NCBI RefSeq assembly: GCF_000195085.1
Contig: NC_015380.1
Span: 730,001-794,000 of the forward strand
Direction: 5' to 3'
DNA length: 64,000 bases
Source of the DNA: Candidatus Pelagibacter sp. IMCC9063
GTDB taxonomy: Bacteria; Pseudomonadota; Alphaproteobacteria; Pelagibacterales; Pelagibacteraceae
Shown here: positions 37,782 through 50,721 of the stretch, piece after piece
Layout of the letters: every line of letters starts with the position of its first letter
Numbering within the stretch: the stretch's first letter is position 1
Position numbers and translations under genes: made by a program
The notes under the pieces: model-generated
Database searches by the model: none
What the model saw: only the letters and a program-made list of their open reading frames with translations
What the model was told of the DNA's origin: nothing

Positions 37782-37866
37782 CTCACTTTTTTTGAAAACC
37801 CGTAAATGAATAACCCATGTCAAAATGCTCTTTTACTAATAAAAAAAAACTATAATGTTGTTCTAA

Positions 37867-38865
37867 ATGACAAGCTCTAATGACAATCTAAATTCTAAAA
37901 TATCTGATGTTACCGATATCAGCAAACCATGGGATAAGAACAATCAGGCCTGGTGGGACTGGTATGTTAGTCTTGCAGATAACGATGTTAAAGAAGATGA
38001 AATCATTAATGCCGATCCCTTACCAGATATTGCAATACCCAGTGATGATGAAGTTGTCTCAGAATTAGCTGAGCCCTACCATTTAGCTGATGACCAAATT
38101 AATTTTTTTAAAAAAAATGGTTTCATAAAACTTAAGAAGGTTTTCTCACCCGGGGCCGTGCTAAAACTTCGAGCTGAGTTAATTAATTTATTAAAAGAAG
38201 AGTTTAAGGTTGATCCAGATAAAGAAGCGCATGACCGTTTCCTTAGTCTTGAAATGATTTGGCCTGACAACCCAATCCTTCGTGCTTACGTACTATCACC
38301 GCGTCTAGGGCAAATTTCAGCAGATCTCCTTGAAGTACCAGCTGTTAGACTTTATCATGACAATGTACTAGCTAAACAAGCTGGTTGTGGTCGTACCCCA
38401 TGGCACTTTGACGATCATCATTTTCCGCTAGATACTAATGACGTAGTTACCGCTTGGGCGCCAGCACAGCCAATTCCTCTTGAGATGGGACCACTCTCTT
38501 TTGCCTATCCACTTGATGTCCACGAATTAGTTAACGCTGTTACGTTTGAAAAGACTGGTACTGGATATGACCGTGGGGTCTCAGATATATTTTCAAAAAA
38601 TAATGTAAGTGTGAATGAAACCCCATTTGAACTGGGCGAAGTTAGCTTTCACCATAATTTAAATTTTCATACCGCTTCACGCAACCGTACTAATCGTAGC
38701 CGAGTGGCTCTAGCCAATACCTATTACCGAGATGGAGCGAGAGTAGTTAATGCACCTACGATGGTCTCTGGTGACTGGCAGAAATTTATGCCCAATGTCA
38801 AACCTGGAGACGTAGCCGCTAGTCCACTAAATCCAATTTGTTGGCCAGTTAAAGACAAATCATGA
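37867..38865 (+). CDS. Phytanoyl-CoA dioxygenase (PhyH) family protein
   Basis: A 332-residue 2OG-Fe(II) oxygenase. TPWHFDDHHFPLD holds the HxD pair, and SFHHNLNFHTASRNRTNRSR holds the distal His and 2-oxoglutarate Arg. The first 65 residues are an acidic, Trp-rich extension. PhyH proteins hydroxylate lipids, betaines (ectoine, carnitine-like) and natural products. It starts a three-gene operon joined by ATGA overlaps. Arg codons are mostly CGT/CGA (about 11, against 2 AGA), unlike the AGA-dominated neighbours, which suggests recent acquisition. Confidence 0.85.
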   Translation: MTSSNDNLNSKISDVTDISKPWDKNNQAWWDWYVSLADNDVKEDEIINADPLPDIAIPSDDEVVSELAEPYHLADDQINFFKKNGFIKLKKVFSPGAVLKLRAELINLLKEEFKVDPDKEAHDRFLSLEMIWPDNPILRAYVLSPRLGQISADLLEVPAVRLYHDNVLAKQAGCGRTPWHFDDHHFPLDTNDVVTAWAPAQPIPLEMGPLSFAYPLDVHELVNAVTFEKTGTGYDRGVSDIFSKNNVSVNETPFELGEVSFHHNLNFHTASRNRTNRSRVALANTYYRDGARVVNAPTMVSGDWQKFMPNVKPGDVAASPLNPICWPVKDKS

Positions 38866-39782
38866 AAGCTATAAATAGTCAGAAGGGACTAAATTCAATC
38901 TGGACTGATAGTCTTTCTCGTAATTTATGTCCTGATGGCAATGCTTTAGTTGATCATTTAAGAACTGTCCACCAAGAACATACTGGATTTACAGAAGCAT
39001 GTGCAAGTTCTTGTCGTGATGAAACTGGACGTAATAGTTATGAATGGCTAGCTGAACTTGTGCCTGATAATGAGGGTTTACGTGTATTAGATCTTGCCTG
39101 TGGGTCAGGGCCATTATTAAAAATCTTATTTGATCGCAATAAAAATTTAAATTTAAAAGGTATAGACATGTGTCCTGAAGAATTGGTATTAGCTAAGACT
39201 CGTCTTATAAACAGCGGAGTTAATCTCATTGAATCAAAAGCACAAAATTTGACAGCAATCAATAATAACTCTATCGACATAGTGTTATGTCATTGGGCTT
39301 TAACATTAATGGACCCGATAGGTCCTGTGTTAGATGAAGTCAGACGAGTTTTAACTCCTGAGGGTCGGTTTGCAGCATTAGTTGATGGGCCAATGAATAC
39401 AGCACCTGGCTACTCAGAGGTACACGATTTAATTTATAGCTATGTTCAAGAAGAAATACCTAGTTATGGAGAGATTGATTTAGGTGATCCAAGAATACGA
39501 GGATCTGAAAGCCTAAGCAATCTTGTACACAAGACTTTTCCAGAAGCATATGTAACTATCGAAACAAATGTTGTCTCTATGGAGGGACCAGTTACGCAAG
39601 TAGCTGAAATTGCAGCAGGATTTTTCTATGCTGCATTTGTCTTAAAGTCAGAAAAAAGAAAATTAATGATTACAAGTCTATCTAACTTACTTGCAATATC
39701 CAAAGAAAGCACTGATGGTGAAAGACAAGGACGATTTTCAATGCCAATTAGTCGTCTTTTAGTTATGCCTGATATAAAATGA
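38862..39782 (+). CDS. Class I SAM-dependent methyltransferase
   Basis: A 306-residue methyltransferase with SAM motif I LRVLDLACGSGPLLKIL near residue 73, GIDMCPEELVLAK as motif II, and DIVLCHWALTLMDP as motif IV. The C-terminal third is helical and lacks a known signature. It overlaps PhyH and EgtD by 4 bases each (ATGA), so all three are made together. Codon use is mixed (many CGN Arg codons). The substrate is unknown; O-, N- or S-methylation of a hercynine-type product is a hypothesis. Confidence 0.85.
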   Translation: MKAINSQKGLNSIWTDSLSRNLCPDGNALVDHLRTVHQEHTGFTEACASSCRDETGRNSYEWLAELVPDNEGLRVLDLACGSGPLLKILFDRNKNLNLKGIDMCPEELVLAKTRLINSGVNLIESKAQNLTAINNNSIDIVLCHWALTLMDPIGPVLDEVRRVLTPEGRFAALVDGPMNTAPGYSEVHDLIYSYVQEEIPSYGEIDLGDPRIRGSESLSNLVHKTFPEAYVTIETNVVSMEGPVTQVAEIAAGFFYAAFVLKSEKRKLMITSLSNLLAISKESTDGERQGRFSMPISRLLVMPDIK

Positions 39783-40702
39783 AATCTTTTTTAAAAGAAG
39801 CAAGTCTCGGTTTAAGTAAGAAAAACAAGAAGTTAAGTTCTAAATGGTTTTATGACTTTCATGGATCAAAACTTTTTGAACAAATTACTAAGTTAGAAGA
39901 ATATTACCCAACACGAACAGAAAGAAAAATTTTAAAAGATAATAAAATTGAAATTGCCAATAGGATAGGTAAGAGCGCAGTTTTAATTGAACCTGGAGCT
40001 GGAGACATCAAAAAAATAGCTATTTTTCTTAGCAACTTAGATAAGCCAAAAAAATTCATACCCTTAGATATTTCTGAAGATTATATGACCAAAATATCTC
40101 AAAGTTTTAAAAGGAAATTTCCAAAAGTAGCTATTACTCCAAAAGGGTATGACTTTTCGGGAAATAACAAACTACCTTTTAAGATTAATTCATCGGAAAA
40201 TATAATCATTTTTTTCCCGGGATCAACCATTGGTAATTTTGAAAAAAAAGATGCTGTTAAATTTTTAAAAATGCTTAAATCAAAATTTAAAGCAAAAAAA
40301 ATTATCATTGGTGTTGACTTGGTTAAAGATATTCCTACTCTAATTTCCGCTTACGATGATAAAAAAGGCGTAACTGCAAAATTTAACAAAAATATATTAC
40401 AAAGAATAAACACTGAATTGGGTGGAGATGTAAACTTAAATTCCTATAAACATTTAGCGATATACAATAAATCAAAAAAAAGAATTGAGATGAGATTAAA
40501 ATCCAAAAATAATAACACTATTAGAATCAATGGTTCAAAATATTTAATTAAAAAAAATGAAGAGATTCACACCGAGAATTCTCATAAATACACGATTAAA
40601 TCCTTCAAAAACTTAGCTAACGAAGCTGGATGGAAAATTGAGAAAACTTGGGTTGATAACAAAAAACTTTTTAGTGTTCACTGTTTAAATCTAGCTCTAT
40701 AG
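39779..40702 (+). CDS. egtD: EgtD-type L-histidine N-alpha-methyltransferase
   Basis: A 307-residue member of the EgtD family. SSKWFYDFHGSKLFEQIT and EEYYPTRTE at the N-terminus, EPGAGDIKKI, FFPGSTIGNF (Asn153) and AYDDKKGVTAKFNKNIL are all diagnostic. Residues that bind histidine in mycobacterial EgtD are kept: Met238 in IEMRL, and Glu266 and Ser268 in TENSHKY. The product should be hercynine (histidine betaine). The ergothioneine partners EgtB and EgtE are absent here; instead a PhyH oxygenase and another methyltransferase precede it. Confidence 0.9.
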   Translation: MKSFLKEASLGLSKKNKKLSSKWFYDFHGSKLFEQITKLEEYYPTRTERKILKDNKIEIANRIGKSAVLIEPGAGDIKKIAIFLSNLDKPKKFIPLDISEDYMTKISQSFKRKFPKVAITPKGYDFSGNNKLPFKINSSENIIIFFPGSTIGNFEKKDAVKFLKMLKSKFKAKKIIIGVDLVKDIPTLISAYDDKKGVTAKFNKNILQRINTELGGDVNLNSYKHLAIYNKSKKRIEMRLKSKNNNTIRINGSKYLIKKNEEIHTENSHKYTIKSFKNLANEAGWKIEKTWVDNKKLFSVHCLNLAL

Positions 40703-40811: not shown

Positions 40812-40888
40812 GGCGGGGTAGCTCAGGTGGTTAGAGCGCAGCACTCATAACGCTGAGGTCGGCAGTTCAAGTCTGCCTCCCGCTACCA
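40812..40888 (+). tRNA. tRNA-Met (CAT)
   Basis: A 77-base cloverleaf with encoded CCA. The acceptor stem GGCGGGG pairs with the 3' TCCCGCT (two G-U), the D arm is GCTC...GAGC, the anticodon loop is CTCATAA (anticodon CAT) and the T arm is GGCAG-TTCAAGT-CTGCC. The layout suits elongator tRNA-Met; a lysidine-modified tRNA-Ile with the same anticodon is less likely but not excluded. Confidence 0.93.
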
Positions 40889-41153: not shown

Positions 41154-41993
41154 ATGAAAGAAGAAGTTGTAAAAGTATATTGGCAACCAGGTTGCTCCAG
41201 CTGCCTCAAGACTAAAGAATTTCTTATGGACAATGGAGTTCCATTTAAATCTGTAAATGTACTAGAGGACAAAACAGGCTTCAAAGACTTAGAAAGATTT
41301 GGGGTTAAAATGGTTCCTATTGTCGCCAAAGGAGATGCTTGGGCAAACGGAGCTGTATTCAGGGATGTCGCCAAAGTTGCAGGCTTTGATTATAAAGCAC
41401 ATAAAATGCTTGAGCCAAAAATCATGGTGGATAAGATAATCAAAATTAATGAAGCCGCCTTTAGATATTTGGAACAAATACCTAATGAAAAACTTGACAC
41501 TTTGCTTCCTGGTCGTCCAAGATCTTATAGGCAATTAGTTTATCATATTTTTAATATCCAAGATGTGTTTTTAAGAAGAGTAGAAGATAATGCACTTTAT
41601 ACTTATGAATCTTTGTTATCAATTTTACCTAAGGAAATGAAAACCAAAAAAGATTTAGCCGATTATGGAAGCAAAGTTAGAAAAAATTTTTTAGAATGGT
41701 GGCACAGAGATGGAGTAACAACTGACTTTAAGCAGCCAGGAAAAGTTTATTATGGAGAGGTAATTTTACATGAAGTTTTGGAAAGAACAGCCTGGCATAG
41801 TGGGCAGCATACTAGGCAAGTACTTTTAATGCTAAAAGAGAAATTAAATTTAGTACCAAACGAGCCAATTGAGGATGTAGTATTTCAAGGCCTACCTATG
41901 CCAAAAAATATATGGGATAACGAAAGGTCTTTTTCAGAAGGCTCTTATTCAGGCCAGGCTTTATCTAGCGTTGAAGATTTTAAAAATTTATAA
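41154..41993 (+). CDS. Glutaredoxin-DinB fusion protein
   Basis: A 279-residue two-domain protein. Residues 1-80 are a glutaredoxin with a CSSC active site (Cys14, Cys17), GVPFKSVNVLED and cis-Pro in KMVPIV. Residues about 90-240 form a DinB/YfiT-like four-helix domain, with His in RQLVYHIFNIQD and the HxxxH-type pair in ERTAWHSGQHTRQV as likely metal ligands. DinB-fold proteins include thiol-dependent transferases that use bacillithiol, mycothiol or glutathione. The fusion suggests a glutathione- or thiol-linked transferase or reductase. The substrate is unknown. Confidence 0.82.
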   Translation: MKEEVVKVYWQPGCSSCLKTKEFLMDNGVPFKSVNVLEDKTGFKDLERFGVKMVPIVAKGDAWANGAVFRDVAKVAGFDYKAHKMLEPKIMVDKIIKINEAAFRYLEQIPNEKLDTLLPGRPRSYRQLVYHIFNIQDVFLRRVEDNALYTYESLLSILPKEMKTKKDLADYGSKVRKNFLEWWHRDGVTTDFKQPGKVYYGEVILHEVLERTAWHSGQHTRQVLLMLKEKLNLVPNEPIEDVVFQGLPMPKNIWDNERSFSEGSYSGQALSSVEDFKNL

Positions 41994-42072: not shown

Positions 42073-43440
42073 ATGAAAAAAATCCCAATTGAAAAAATTA
42101 AAGAAATTTTTTCCAAAAAAAATATACTTTCTAGTTATCTGCTTGTCGAAAAAGAAATGGCTCTTGCACAGAGTGAATTAAAAATAATTCCAAAAAAATC
42201 AGCTATAGAAATTAGCAAAAAATGTAACATCAAATATTTTAATTTAAAATTTTTTGAAAAAGATTTAAAGAAAACTAAGGCCCCAATAGTTTCTTTAGTA
42301 AATTTTATAGTGAAATTGTGCTCAGAAGAATCTAAGAAATATGTTCATTATGGAGCAACAACACAGAATATTACGCAAGCTGGATCAGCTCTTCTGATGA
42401 GAAAATCTCATATTCAAGCAATGTATAGAATGTCAGATTGTTTAAAGACTTTATCTAAGTTATCTTTCAAGTTTTCTAATCAACCAATGATCGCAAGAAC
42501 TAATGGACAGCATGGCATGCCTATGACCTTCGGTTTTAAAATATCTGAATGGACGGAAGAAATTTTAAGATTTGAAGAAAGATTTGAAGAAATTGAAAAA
42601 AGATTATTTATACTTGTATTTGGTGGGGCAGTAGGAGCAATGCATTCGTTCAAAAATAAAGGAGAATCTCTTTATAAAAATCTAGCTGATCGGCTAAACT
42701 TACAAAGAGTTGAGGTTCCGTCTAGAGTAATTATAGACAACATAGCAGAATATACATTTTTATGCAGCCATCTGGCTGCTGCTTTATCAAATATTGGACG
42801 TGAATTAAATTTTTATATGCGAGATGAAATTCAGGAAATTTCTGAAAATTTACCCGAAGGTACAGTCGGTAGCTCTACCATGCCACAAAAAATTAACCCA
42901 AAATATGTTTATACCTTCGTGGCTTTAGCAGAAGATTTGGCTAGCTACACCTCAAGAGGTAATGCAATGATGTCTATTCAGAATGAGGGTGATTTAGCAA
43001 TGAATCAGTTTCAAAAACAAACAATTCAAGAAATTTTTCCAAAATTAAACATTTTATTAGAAGAATTTAATAACTTGCTAAATGTAATTAGAATAAATCG
43101 AAAAAAAATGAATGACAATTTAGAAATTACCAAAGGTTTAATTAATTCTGAAAATATTGTCATGTCTATCGCCCCTATCTTAGGTAAGCAAAAAGCTTAT
43201 AAAATTTTACACGAAATTGTAGATGAAGTTAGACTTAAAAATAAGAATTATCAAGAAGCTTTAAACTCCAACAAGGATATAAAAAAAATTCTATCTAGAA
43301 AAAAAATAATTGAATTAACGGACTCTAAAAAAAATATAGGTAATAGTAGAAAAGTCTCATTAAAAATGTCAAAAATAGCAGAACATAGGTCTTCTAAATT
43401 ATGTTCTAGATTAAATAAAATTAATCAAGTTACGAAGTAA
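42073..43440 (+). CDS. Fumarase/aspartase superfamily lyase (adenylosuccinate lyase-like)
   Basis: A 455-residue lyase. VHYGATTQNITQAGSALL near residue 96, ARTNGQHGMPMTFGFK near 141 and the signature GSSTMPQKINPK near 272 identify the superfamily; the Ser of GSST is the general base. The pattern is closest to the adenylosuccinate lyase / 3-carboxymuconate cycloisomerase group. It lies 83 bases before a TctCBA transporter on the same strand, so it may split an imported C-N or C-O bonded dicarboxylate (fumarate release) rather than act in purine synthesis. Confidence 0.82.
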   Translation: MKKIPIEKIKEIFSKKNILSSYLLVEKEMALAQSELKIIPKKSAIEISKKCNIKYFNLKFFEKDLKKTKAPIVSLVNFIVKLCSEESKKYVHYGATTQNITQAGSALLMRKSHIQAMYRMSDCLKTLSKLSFKFSNQPMIARTNGQHGMPMTFGFKISEWTEEILRFEERFEEIEKRLFILVFGGAVGAMHSFKNKGESLYKNLADRLNLQRVEVPSRVIIDNIAEYTFLCSHLAAALSNIGRELNFYMRDEIQEISENLPEGTVGSSTMPQKINPKYVYTFVALAEDLASYTSRGNAMMSIQNEGDLAMNQFQKQTIQEIFPKLNILLEEFNNLLNVIRINRKKMNDNLEITKGLINSENIVMSIAPILGKQKAYKILHEIVDEVRLKNKNYQEALNSNKDIKKILSRKKIIELTDSKKNIGNSRKVSLKMSKIAEHRSSKLCSRLNKINQVTK

Positions 43441-43523
43441 TATACATCTATTTTATATTTTTTTTTGTTTTAAAATCTACTCAAATCTATTATCATAATA
43501 TAAATAATAAAAAGGGGAGATAA

Positions 43524-44498
43524 ATGAAAAATTTAATTAAAATAGTATCGTTATTTACTTTATCATTTTTTATTCTTGGAAATCAGGCTTTTGCTGAATT
43601 TCCAGAAAAAGAGATTAAAGTAATTGTAAACTATGGAGCTGGTGGTGGAGTTGATCGTACTGCTAGATCATTACAGAAGTTTTTACCAAAAGCATTTGGT
43701 AAGACAGTCATTGTTGAAAATCACAAAGGAGCAGGTGGTAAAATTGGATTGAAAAAATTTATGGCAGAGCCTAGGGATGGCTATTCTATTTTGACAGCCT
43801 TTGCACCAGCTACAACTTATGTTAAATTCAAAGACTCCAAGGTTTTTAAAACCGATGATCTTGATATAATCAATATTCAATGGGTAGATCCTGCTATTAT
43901 TTATGCAAGAAAAGATACTGGCTGGAAAAATATTGATGATATGATTAAGGCTGTAAAAGCCAATCCGGGCAAATACTCATTTGGTTCAAGCGGAAAAGGT
44001 TCTGTAGGACCAGTGCTGTCTAGAGTTTTGTTTAAAGAACTAGGACTGGATGTTAAAATGGTACCTTACAAAGGTGGTGGAAAAACTAGGAAAGCATTTA
44101 TTGCTGGTGAAGTACATATGTCAGCTGCTGGATCTGGTGGAGCATTAAAAGCCAAAAAACATGCAGTAGTGCTTGGAGCATTTATGAAGGGCAGCGTTCC
44201 TGGATGGGATAAAGCTCAACCTATAAATAAGTTATTAAAAAAATATGGATATAAAGTAAAGGTTCCGTATGGAGGTGCTTACAGATTTCATGCATTGCAT
44301 AAGGACGTTAAAAAAAACTATCCGAAAAGATATAAAAAAATTATATCTGCCTATAAAAAAACTACCAAGTCAAACAAAGACTTCATAGCTTTTGCTGACA
44401 AAACAAAAGTTGGTAGAGACTGGTTAGGTCCTAGAAAGTCAAATAAATTGTACAGAAAAGTCGATAAAGAATTTACCGACATAATGAGTAAATATTAA
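43524..44498 (+). CDS. tctC: TTT transporter substrate-binding protein (TctC family), second set
   Basis: A 324-residue secreted binding protein with a signal peptide (LFTLSFFILGNQAFA). NYGAGGGVDRTARSLQKFLP near residue 38 and GAGGKIGLKKFMAEPRDGY give the TctC/Bug pattern. AAGGGGAG is a strong ribosome binding site. The mature protein is Lys-rich (basic), unlike many homologues. A stable hairpin lies between it and tctB, probably allowing more binding protein than permease. The ligand may be the substrate of the adjacent lyase. Confidence 0.88.
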   Translation: MKNLIKIVSLFTLSFFILGNQAFAEFPEKEIKVIVNYGAGGGVDRTARSLQKFLPKAFGKTVIVENHKGAGGKIGLKKFMAEPRDGYSILTAFAPATTYVKFKDSKVFKTDDLDIINIQWVDPAIIYARKDTGWKNIDDMIKAVKANPGKYSFGSSGKGSVGPVLSRVLFKELGLDVKMVPYKGGGKTRKAFIAGEVHMSAAGSGGALKAKKHAVVLGAFMKGSVPGWDKAQPINKLLKKYGYKVKVPYGGAYRFHALHKDVKKNYPKRYKKIISAYKKTTKSNKDFIAFADKTKVGRDWLGPRKSNKLYRKVDKEFTDIMSKY

Positions 44499-44512
44499 AT
44501 ACATTGTAATTT

Positions 44513-44534
44513 AAGGGGGTTGAAAAACCCCCTT
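44513..44534 (+). other. Intercistronic hairpin tctC-tctB
   Basis: AAGGGGGTT-GAAA-AACCCCCTT is a perfect 9-bp stem with a GAAA tetraloop. It is not followed by a U run, so it is more likely a 3'-end stabiliser or partial terminator for the tctC message than a full terminator. Confidence 0.75.
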
Positions 44535-44544
44535 TAATAGCTAA

Positions 44545-44973
44545 ATGAAAATTGTAAAAAAAATTTTTAACGAATTTAATTTTTTTATAATTCTTGCAAT
44601 TTCCTGGTCATTTTATTTTTTAAATAGCACTTTAAAGCTCGAGGAGGGTCCAGAAAGTGTATTGCTAATCAAGCCCCTTTTTTATTTTTTTGTAGGTATA
44701 TCTATTTTTATTATAATTGAGAGTGTTGTCAAAAACTTAAATACCAAAAGTCAACTATTTGAGCAGAAAAAAATATACTTTCTGATAACTGTATTACTAT
44801 TTTTCTGTGGCCTAAATTTATTTGGATATTTAATTTCAACTTTTTTTTTCTATATTATTCTAAGTTACTTATTGGGATTTAGAAATAAATTCATTTTAAT
44901 TCCCCCATTTCTTGCACTGACAATTGTTTATTTTTTTTTTCATAAGCTTTTAAAAATACCTTTGCCATTATGA
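44545..44973 (+). CDS. tctB: TTT transporter small permease subunit (TctB family), second set
   Basis: A 142-residue protein with four hydrophobic segments, as in TctB. It has no clear ribosome binding site; the hairpin end lies 10 bases upstream. Its stop overlaps the tctA start by 4 bases (ATGA). The sequence is not recognisably similar to the first TctB in the window. The call rests on topology and gene order. Confidence 0.78.
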   Translation: MKIVKKIFNEFNFFIILAISWSFYFLNSTLKLEEGPESVLLIKPLFYFFVGISIFIIIESVVKNLNTKSQLFEQKKIYFLITVLLFFCGLNLFGYLISTFFFYIILSYLLGFRNKFILIPPFLALTIVYFFFHKLLKIPLPL

Positions 44974-46463
44974 TAAATTTTGGAGATTTAATGGAGGGTG
45001 TTGGTCTTTTAATATCTTGGAAAATGCCCTTGGCAATTTTTTCTGGGATGTTGCTAGGTTTAATTATTGGAGTTATTCCTGGTATGACAGCTGCTTTAGG
45101 TTTAGCTATTATTTTACCACTAACACTTTCTTTAGATGCCTTAACTGCTCTAATATTAATGACATCGGTTTATACTGGTAGCTTAACAGGGGGGGGGATT
45201 TTAGCTATTTTAATTAATACACCAGGAACACCTGGGGCTGTTGCCACAACGCTCGATGGTTATCCAATGACTAGAAAAGGATTACACAATGAAGCACTGG
45301 GGTTACAAATTTCATCTTCTGTAATAGGAGGTTTTCTATCATATCTTGTATTACTTTTTGCAATTGAGCCAATGACCTGGTTGGCTTTAAAATTTGGTTC
45401 TTCTGAAATGTTAGCATTAACAATATTTGTAATTGTTTTTATAGGTATTCTCCAAGGAAAATATCTTAGCAGAGCAATATTTGCAGGCGTGTTTGGCATT
45501 CTAGTTTCTAATATTGGTACTAGCGTTTCAACCGGTGTTGCAAGAGGAACTTTTGGTTTTGCAGAACTTGAAGATGGGGTTCCTTTAATTATTTGTATTA
45601 TAGGTATGTTTGCAATTCCAGAATTGCTCTCATTGGTCAATAGAAAATCAATATCTGATGAGGATGTACAAAAAGAACATAACATCCAAGATTTGTTTAA
45701 AGGGATATACAAAGCTATTAAGAAAGTTAAAATTTGGTTAACTGGAAGCATTGTTGGTATTTTTGTAGGTGTTTTACCTGCTGCGGGTGCAGCTATAGCT
45801 TCCTTATCTAGTTATTCACTTGCAAAAAAGTTTTCAAAAAATAAAGAAAATTTTGGAAAAGGTGAGCCAGACGGGGTTGTTGCGGCAGAAAGTGCAAACA
45901 ATGCATCTGAAGGAGGATCAATGGCTATATTGCTTTCTCTTGGTATTCCTGGAAGCGCATCTACAGCTGTTATTTTAGGAGGTTTTATGTTGCACGGCTT
46001 GGTTCCAGGTGGCGGGTTGTTCAGAGATAATGGGCCTTTAGTTTATGGCTTAATAGTTGGGAATCTTTTACAAATGATTTTTTTGGGTTTTTTTGCAGCT
46101 TTCATAGCTTTTTATGTTGGAAAAATCGTCAAGGTAAAGTCCTACTTGCTTGTTCCACTTTTAATTATCCTAATGTCCATAGGCTCATTCGCTTATAGAA
46201 ATTTAATTTTTGATGTTTATATACTTTTTATTTTTGGTATCATTGGATGGTATCTTAAAAAATTTGAATTTACGCCTTTAAGTTTTATGATTGGTCTTTT
46301 TTTAGGAAGACAAATTGATGAGGACATTGAAAGAGTAATAATTTTATTTTCAGACAATCCTTTAAAAGTTTTCGAGAGTACAATTACTTCTGTAATAACT
46401 TTATTTACAGTTCTTTCTTTGTGCTATTATTTTTTCTTTAAAAATAAAAATAAAAAAAATTGA
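44970..46463 (+). CDS. tctA: TTT transporter large permease subunit (TctA family), second set
   Basis: A 497-residue polytopic membrane protein with GVIPGMTAALGLAIILPLTL near residue 33, TGGGILAILINTPGTPGAVATTLDGYP near 74 and ILLSLGIPGSASTAVILGGF near 315, the TctA signatures. It completes the second TctCBA system. A run of Gs near 45190-45197 encodes TGGGI and is in frame. No terminator is obvious downstream. Confidence 0.92.
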   Translation: MINFGDLMEGVGLLISWKMPLAIFSGMLLGLIIGVIPGMTAALGLAIILPLTLSLDALTALILMTSVYTGSLTGGGILAILINTPGTPGAVATTLDGYPMTRKGLHNEALGLQISSSVIGGFLSYLVLLFAIEPMTWLALKFGSSEMLALTIFVIVFIGILQGKYLSRAIFAGVFGILVSNIGTSVSTGVARGTFGFAELEDGVPLIICIIGMFAIPELLSLVNRKSISDEDVQKEHNIQDLFKGIYKAIKKVKIWLTGSIVGIFVGVLPAAGAAIASLSSYSLAKKFSKNKENFGKGEPDGVVAAESANNASEGGSMAILLSLGIPGSASTAVILGGFMLHGLVPGGGLFRDNGPLVYGLIVGNLLQMIFLGFFAAFIAFYVGKIVKVKSYLLVPLLIILMSIGSFAYRNLIFDVYILFIFGIIGWYLKKFEFTPLSFMIGLFLGRQIDEDIERVIILFSDNPLKVFESTITSVITLFTVLSLCYYFFFKNKNKKN

Positions 46464-49491: not shown

Positions 49492-50721
49492 ATGTTTAAT
49501 TATCAATTCGTTAAAAACAATTCTAGATTTCTTTTATTCGGGTTCATTTTGACATTTTGTTCCAGCTTTGGTCAAACTTTTTTTATTGGTATTTTTAATC
49601 CTTATATAAGAGAAGATTTAAGCTTAAGTCATTCTGAATTTGGTTTAATTTATTCGTTGGCTACTCTTTTAAGTAGCTTTTCCTTAATATGGGTAGGAAA
49701 AAAAATTGATGACTTTAAAATCATTTATTTTGCCATTACGGCATGTATATTTCTAGCCTTTTCTAGTTTTTTTTTAACCTTGGTTACCAATATTATTCTT
49801 TTATTTTTTGCAATATATTTCCTTAGACTGTCAGGGCAGGGATTGATGACTCATACTGCGAGTACTTCTATGGCTAAATTTTTTGACTTAAATCGCGGTA
49901 AAGCTCTTAGCATTTCTTGGCTAGGACTGTCCTTAGGGGAAGGTTTTCTACCTTATTTGATAATTTTTCTTATGAAGTTTTATTCTTGGAAAATAGTTTG
50001 GCTAGGGATTTCTATTTTCGTTTTGTGTTTAGTAGTTCCTTCCGTTTTTATTATCTTAAAATCATATCAAGATGGAGCTACTGAAGTTTCTGATCGTAAA
50101 AAAAAAGACGAGGCTAATCCCACAATTAAAAACTGGACAAGATCAGAAGTAATACGTGACTCAAAGTTTTATTTTTTACTTCCTGCTGTATTAGGGCCTG
50201 GTTTTCTATCAACAGGAATTTTTATTAATCAAATCTATATTTTCGAGAGCAAACAATGGTCGATGCTGTTATTAGCCCAAGGATTTACTTTATATGCAAT
50301 CGTAGGCGTAATCACGTTGGCTGTTTCTGGTTTTTTAGTTGATCGTTTTTCTGCTATTAAAATTTTACCTTTTTATTTGTTACCGACCATGGGTGCTTAT
50401 TTTTTGGTAATTACAAGCAGCTGGGCCTTTACCCCAATTGTTATGATGACTTTAATTGCGATGACCAATGGCACTTCTAGTGTTTTGTTAACCTCTACTT
50501 GGTCAGAAATCTATGGAACTAAGTATTTAGGTGGAATTAGATCTGTCACCATCTCCTTCTTTGTTTTTTCTACTGCAATTGGCCCTGTATTGTTTGGATA
50601 CTTGATTGATCAGCAATTCACTATTAATCAAATATTTTCAATGATGTTGGGTTACTTAATTTTGGCTAATGCTTTGTTTTTGTTCAAATTAAAAGACTAC
50701 CAACCTGTAAAAATTGCTTGA
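49492..50721 (+). CDS. Major facilitator superfamily transporter
   Basis: A 409-residue protein with twelve predicted helices. The N-terminal half has FFIGIFNPYIREDLSLSHSEFGLIYSLATL, like the NarK/OxlT-type MFS pattern, and WVGKKIDD follows as the loop 2-3 motif. The centre (DRKKKDEANPT) is the usual charged cytoplasmic loop. The substrate is unknown; relatives move organic anions. It is divergent from the fused dehydrogenase gene, with 20 bases between starts. Confidence 0.88.
   Translation: MFNYQFVKNNSRFLLFGFILTFCSSFGQTFFIGIFNPYIREDLSLSHSEFGLIYSLATLLSSFSLIWVGKKIDDFKIIYFAITACIFLAFSSFFLTLVTNIILLFFAIYFLRLSGQGLMTHTASTSMAKFFDLNRGKALSISWLGLSLGEGFLPYLIIFLMKFYSWKIVWLGISIFVLCLVVPSVFIILKSYQDGATEVSDRKKKDEANPTIKNWTRSEVIRDSKFYFLLPAVLGPGFLSTGIFINQIYIFESKQWSMLLLAQGFTLYAIVGVITLAVSGFLVDRFSAIKILPFYLLPTMGAYFLVITSSWAFTPIVMMTLIAMTNGTSSVLLTSTWSEIYGTKYLGGIRSVTISFFVFSTAIGPVLFGYLIDQQFTINQIFSMMLGYLILANALFLFKLKDYQPVKIA

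Follow-up and report, generated by a model that had tools for sequence, protein, structure and literature searches.

A PhyH oxygenase-methyltransferase-EgtD cassette in SAR11 as a candidate sulfur-free branch of histidine-betaine biosynthesis

Introduction

The ergothioneine, ovothiol, and selenoneine pathways all put sulfur or selenium on the imidazole ring. In the ergothioneine route (EgtD-EgtB-EgtE), sulfurization at C-2 is carried out by a sulfoxide synthase. Ovothiol (OvoA) and selenoneine (SenA) are likewise histidine-derived, methylated small molecules, and their routes use an FGE/DinB sulfoxide or selenoxide synthase. The anaerobic ergothioneine route, EanA-EanB, combines an EgtD homologue with a tailoring enzyme and has no EgtB; EanB is a rhodanese-like sulfur transferase (PMC9103826). 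A sulfur-free methylated hercynine also occurs in the sea, namely 6-methylhercynine from the deep-sea sponge Characella pachastrelloides, for which a radical methylation at C-2 has been proposed with no gene known (PMC8779493). Among the oxygenases related in fold, EctD hydroxylates a compatible solute. SAR11 bacteria are among the most abundant cells of the ocean and depend on scavenged reduced sulfur.

The cassette described here lies in a 64,000-nucleotide stretch of Candidatus Pelagibacter sp. IMCC9063 (the window; NC_015380.1, positions 730,001 to 794,000). It has EgtD and the expected hercynine in common with the ergothioneine route, and EgtB adjoins it in some relatives. It differs in lacking the sulfoxide synthase step, and an Fe/2OG oxygenase and a class I methyltransferase stand in the place of EgtB. 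EgtD is joined to tailoring enzymes without EgtB, as in the EanA-EanB route, but here it is combined with an oxygenase and a methyltransferase instead of a rhodanese. A class I methyltransferase with an oxygenase also differs from the radical chemistry proposed for the sponge compound. The oxygenase shares its fold family and iron/2OG motif with EctD, SnoK, and MysH; however, the similarity is remote, and an N-terminal aromatic extension is unique to this PhyH type. Because the synthases of the ergothioneine, ovothiol, and selenoneine pathways are absent from this genome, the cassette falls outside all three, although EgtD is shared with the first.

Genomes and data sets

The host genome is complete, with a single contig of 1,284,727 bases, and was assigned to SAR11 by its relatives. 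A scan of GTDB genomes found this PhyH at 80 loci, almost all of them in Pelagibacteraceae; the remainder came from a few Rhodobacteraceae, one Thioalkalivibrio, and some unclassified marine bins. Co-occurrence was counted in one set of 247 genomes drawn from the order, with PhyH in 14, EgtD in 33, and EgtB in 22. A further set of 50 genomes with a PhyH locus consisted mostly of genomes picked for the local absence of EgtD or EgtB. Most neighbor-gene names around the cassettes are readings of the translations.

Results

Layout and conservation of the cassette

The three genes occupy positions 37867-40702 of the forward strand and encode, in series, a PhyH oxygenase, a class I methyltransferase (MT), and a canonical EgtD (Table 1). 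Consecutive genes overlap by ATGA, at 38862-38865 for PhyH/MT and at 39779-39782 for MT/EgtD. The open reading frames and the Pfam and NCBIfam matches confirmed the original prediction of a PhyH protein, a SAM methyltransferase, and a bona fide EgtD joined by two such overlaps.

Table 1 Positions of the cassette genes and the flanking elements within the window.
Feature	Position	Strand	Length	Remark
Conserved upstream element	37815..37866	+		ATGTCAAAATGCTCTTTTACTAAT...ACTATAAT; directly 5' of PhyH
PhyH ORF	37867-38865	+	332 aa	
MT ORF	38862-39782	+	306 aa	
EgtD ORF	39779-40702	+	307 aa	
tRNA-Met	40812..40888	+		ARAGORN; directly 3' of EgtD; marks the cassette end, outside the pathway

The same gene order was sought in other genomes, and the trio was present in about 48 of the 80 fetched relatives. 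PhyH is followed by MT in all SAR11 loci, and EgtD follows MT in 48 loci. At these 48 loci the ATGA overlap is kept at the PhyH/MT junction in 40 and at the MT/EgtD junction in 44. With the order kept at 48 loci and overlaps at most junctions, the arrangement is not due to chance. The surroundings of the cassette vary: it is found between sucAB-lpd and priA/atp genes, next to gshAB, downstream of a his operon, and at other sites. The his context was seen in a SAR11 single-cell genome (L063, 4042-10833), with the trio directly 3' of hisB-hisH-hisA-hisF-hisE-hinT-GNAT on the same strand; it is suggestive but is one of many contexts.

Between the window and its relatives, dN/dS fell within 0.06-0.28 for each of the three genes, and this also applies to EgtD where EgtB is missing. 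This indicates that the trio is under purifying selection. PhyH, EgtD, and EgtB are all missing from three other genomes of the same genus, and the cassette is thus accessory and apparently mobile. The module is also rare, since the sole close match among 398 genomes of the phylum was the window's own. The search of viral contigs returned no relative of the module, and the plasmid matches were distantly related PhyH proteins with neither MT nor EgtD.

A strongly conserved element precedes PhyH. It reads ATGTCAAAACGCGCTCTTACTAAT...TATAA and travels with the cassette across chromosomal contexts. The strict motif TGYCAAAAYG was found within the last 100 nt 5' of PhyH in 47 of the 48 trio loci, compared with 1 of 31 other loci, and the host genome has a single copy of the extended pattern. 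A sigma-70 scan did not pick out the element. It is a candidate promoter or operator with a very short 5' leader.

Several neighbors of the cassette were recorded. Beyond the tRNA-Met, a glutaredoxin-DinB fusion (41154-41993) adjoins the cassette and is the sole DinB_2 protein of the genome. At 42073-46463, a PurB/PcaB-like lyase (nearest NCBIfam XcbD, far under its cut-off) is followed by tripartite tricarboxylate transporter-like genes. An MFS transporter at 49549-50610 shares 35% identity with the MFS protein found with PhyH-MT outside SAR11. In those non-SAR11 loci (L113 5359-10887, L115 4754-8860, L110 808-3514, and L106 2317-7910), a second methyltransferase accompanies PhyH-MT; it has no NCBIfam match, and the MFS protein and a sodium:solute symporter are often alongside. 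The window cassette carries none of these three additional components, and the non-SAR11 loci possibly hold an extended version of the pathway.

Predicted functions of the three proteins

EgtD matched the TIGR03438 equivalog at 356.8 bits (cut-off 290.9), and the best EgtD match in the PDB had E=7e-46. Residues N153, Y42, Y192, M238, E266, and S268 of the window EgtD align with N166, Y56, Y206, M252, E282, and S284 of the mycobacterial enzyme. M252 is one that we take to be a residue of the histidine site. In mycobacterial EgtD, N166, E282, S284, Y56, and Y206 contact the ligand (PMC8593015). The alignment agrees with the earlier claim that the histidine-binding residues Asn153, Met238, Glu266, and Ser268 are kept. 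By sequence, this protein is expected to be a histidine N-alpha-trimethyltransferase with hercynine as its product.

The PhyH protein matched PF05721 at 50 bits. H180, D182, H268, and R279 do not vary across 14 sequences with identities as low as 54%, and they align with the HxD...H...R of SnoK, that is, the iron triad and the 2OG-binding Arg. Since the iron and 2OG residues are kept in every relative, PhyH should be an active oxygenase. Its N-terminal extension holds the invariant aromatics W22, W29, W30, W32, and Y33, and it is our guess that this W/Y-rich segment could bind a trimethylammonium group. The AlphaFold2 model of PhyH (pLDDT 44) is too poor to be used on such a pocket.

MT matched PF08241 at 56 bits and has LDLACGSG as its SAM motif I; its best NCBIfam matches were far under their cut-offs. 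The AlphaFold2 model (pLDDT 87) is that of a class I SAM-dependent small-molecule methyltransferase with a Rossmann fold. The nearest solved folds are small-molecule O-, N-, C-, and S-methyltransferases, a generic outcome that does not discriminate between O-, N-, and C-methylation.

EgtB, OvoA, SenA, and EanB in the host genome

The best TIGR03440 score in the whole genome was 41.8 bits (cut-off 360), and tblastn of a SAR11 EgtB against the genome gave no match. The 41.8-bit match (G000:C1:15017) is an FGE-only protein of 264 aa that lacks a DinB domain. No other FGE-domain protein occurs in the genome, and the only DinB_2 protein is the glutaredoxin fusion; neither OvoA nor SenA is present. 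The absence of EgtB, OvoA, and SenA from this genome is well supported. A split EgtB made of the FGE protein and the glutaredoxin-DinB fusion was also considered. It was rejected, as the two genes are far apart, the FGE protein has no DinB domain and starts with a signal-like hydrophobic stretch, and the other half is a glutaredoxin fusion. No EanB-like rhodanese adjoins EgtD. A crude motif scan of the genome found a 143-aa rhodanese-like frame and a 308-aa TrhO-like frame, and no large EanB-like protein.

EgtB beside the cassette in relatives

A true EgtB (TIGR03440, 527 bits) lies directly upstream of the trio in about 19 SAR11 relatives, in the order EgtB-PhyH-MT-EgtD. In L105, the order is EgtD-PhyH-MT-EgtB. 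The view that this is an operon without EgtB, as first predicted, therefore holds for the complete genome studied here, where the profile search and tblastn found none, but fails as a general description. Because some 19 SAR11 trios adjoin EgtB, the module can be reconciled with ergothioneine synthesis and also with a replacement of EgtB. In the relatives with a clustered EgtB, its substrate could be an intermediate further along the ergothioneine route.

The EgtD tree groups the trio EgtDs in a single clade (100/100), and the SAR11 loci with EgtB make up one clade (100/100) nested among those without it. Support for the inner branches is weak and the closest outgroup is paired with EgtB, so that this tree is compatible with a single gain of EgtB and with multiple losses. 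Under gain or loss, EgtD is retained under selection in many lineages that have no EgtB.

Co-occurrence of PhyH-MT and EgtD

All 14 PhyH-positive genomes of the order sample carry EgtD. Of the 33 EgtD-positive genomes, 18 have EgtB alone, 10 have PhyH alone, 4 carry the two together, and 1 lacks both. This split indicates that nearly every EgtD in the order has a possible consumer of hercynine, whether EgtB, PhyH-MT, or both. Fisher tests on the sample gave 3e-14 and 1e-4, values that ignore relatedness among phylogenetically non-independent SAR11 tallies. Among the 50 PhyH-locus genomes, EgtD was found somewhere in 45, and any match to the EgtB model in 9 (8 or 9 of them substantial, 7 over the cut-off).

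The same PhyH-MT is combined with different EgtDs. PhyH is 75-87% identical between the SAR11 subclades, L105/L077/L083, and Rhodobacteraceae; their EgtDs are 37-44% identical and fall in separate clades. The EgtD lineages paired with PhyH-MT are the trio clade, a solo EgtD (L250-L252), the upstream EgtD of L105/L077/L083, that of the Rhodobacteraceae L106/L109, and that of the EgtB-EgtD pair in L253-type genomes. PhyH-MT and EgtD are unlinked in one SAR11 clade, where the lone EgtD (L250-L252) adjoins a glycine-betaine/proline-type ABC transporter (ProX/ProW). In the genomes of the L059/L066 and L253 types, PhyH branches inside the trio PhyH clade, but no EgtD remains at the locus, and a divergent EgtB-EgtD pair is located in another part of the genome. 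Three distant PhyH-MT genomes (G142, G322, and G104; PhyH identity 54-56%) also have EgtD elsewhere in the genome. In two of them, an EgtB-EgtD operon is followed by a class V aminotransferase-fold gene, which could be the lyase. Rhodosalinus (the L111 genome) has PhyH-MT, and EgtD was not detected there. Outside SAR11, co-occurrence discriminates little, since EgtD is common in several of those families. The pairing of PhyH-MT with several unrelated EgtDs, linked or unlinked, argues that the association is not a positional accident. The phylogenetic profiles support a metabolic link between PhyH-MT and EgtD.

Discussion

A hydroxylase with a methyltransferase is a common tailoring pair. On the present evidence, the operon is probably a sulfur-free histidine-betaine branch, in which PhyH and MT would oxidize and methylate hercynine, or histidine before EgtD. 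EgtD would trimethylate histidine to hercynine. PhyH may then hydroxylate hercynine, or act on histidine ahead of EgtD, most likely at an activated C-H such as C-beta, a plausible site as it adjoins the imidazole. MT would methylate the new hydroxyl or another position. The result would be an oxidized histidine betaine with additional methylation, which probably builds up in the cell as a small zwitterionic solute or protectant. PhyH-MT would be a two-gene module able to move between genomes and to use the hercynine of any EgtD in the cell, and in the window lineage EgtD may have joined the cassette as the third gene. We infer hercynine as the substrate, the order of the steps, the sites of modification, and the role of the product. 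The original prediction of a hercynine-derived, oxidized and methylated product appears to be the best reading, given the co-occurrence of PhyH-MT with EgtD. It had been matched to no described pathway; likewise, our search found no EgtD-PhyH pathway in the openly accessible literature, which omits most subscription papers, and nothing there on hercynine or ergothioneine together with SAR11.

EgtB precedes PhyH-MT-EgtD in about 19 SAR11 loci and follows MT in L105, a placement that would also be expected if PhyH-MT tailored ergothioneine or a sulfur-bearing hercynine derivative. In the window lineage, EgtB would then have been lost, and ergothioneine imported from seawater or made by EanB-like sulfur transfer, a reaction on hercynine that is known (PMC9103826). 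We consider this unlikely. EgtD is kept without EgtB in 10 of the 14 PhyH-positive genomes of the order and in most of the 50 genomes checked. Import alone would make EgtD useless, yet EgtD is under purifying selection, and the crude motif scan found no large EanB-like protein for a sulfur transfer in the own genome.

A product unrelated to hercynine, such as a modified lipid or quinone, would make the trio a set of accessory genes of one niche. The separation of PhyH-MT from EgtD in one SAR11 clade and several other taxa, the resemblance of MT to many different methyltransferases, and the Rhodosalinus genome fit such a product, but we regard it as quite unlikely in view of the 14 of 14 co-occurrence, the repeated pairing with unrelated EgtDs, the loss of the local EgtD where another exists, and the translational coupling in 44 of 48 loci. 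Very improbable is a catabolic role, with PhyH oxidizing hercynine at an N-methyl group or on its side chain, so that released formaldehyde or trimethylamine feeds one-carbon metabolism. Spending three SAM on hercynine and then demethylating it would be futile, two methyltransferases indicate synthesis, and no lyase is linked. These points stand against the betaine and one-carbon genes near EgtD in some relatives, and against the richness of SAR11 in methyl-oxidizing one-carbon pathways, as reported (PMC3160333).

Beyond the sulfur-free branch itself, a bolder proposal is put forward tentatively. SAR11 may make an undescribed oxygenated, methylated histidine betaine, for example beta-methoxyhercynine, that replaces ergothioneine with no reduced sulfur spent. 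PhyH-MT may spread horizontally among EgtD-bearing bacteria and turn the ergothioneine precursor into a sulfur-free product. The prediction is concrete: three small genes, and a mass shift of hercynine + O + CH2 in cells and in seawater. If true, an unrecognized histidine-betaine metabolite would join the marine pool of small zwitterions, and a sulfur-free branch off the ergothioneine precursor would be chemically and ecologically notable in organisms that depend on reduced sulfur.
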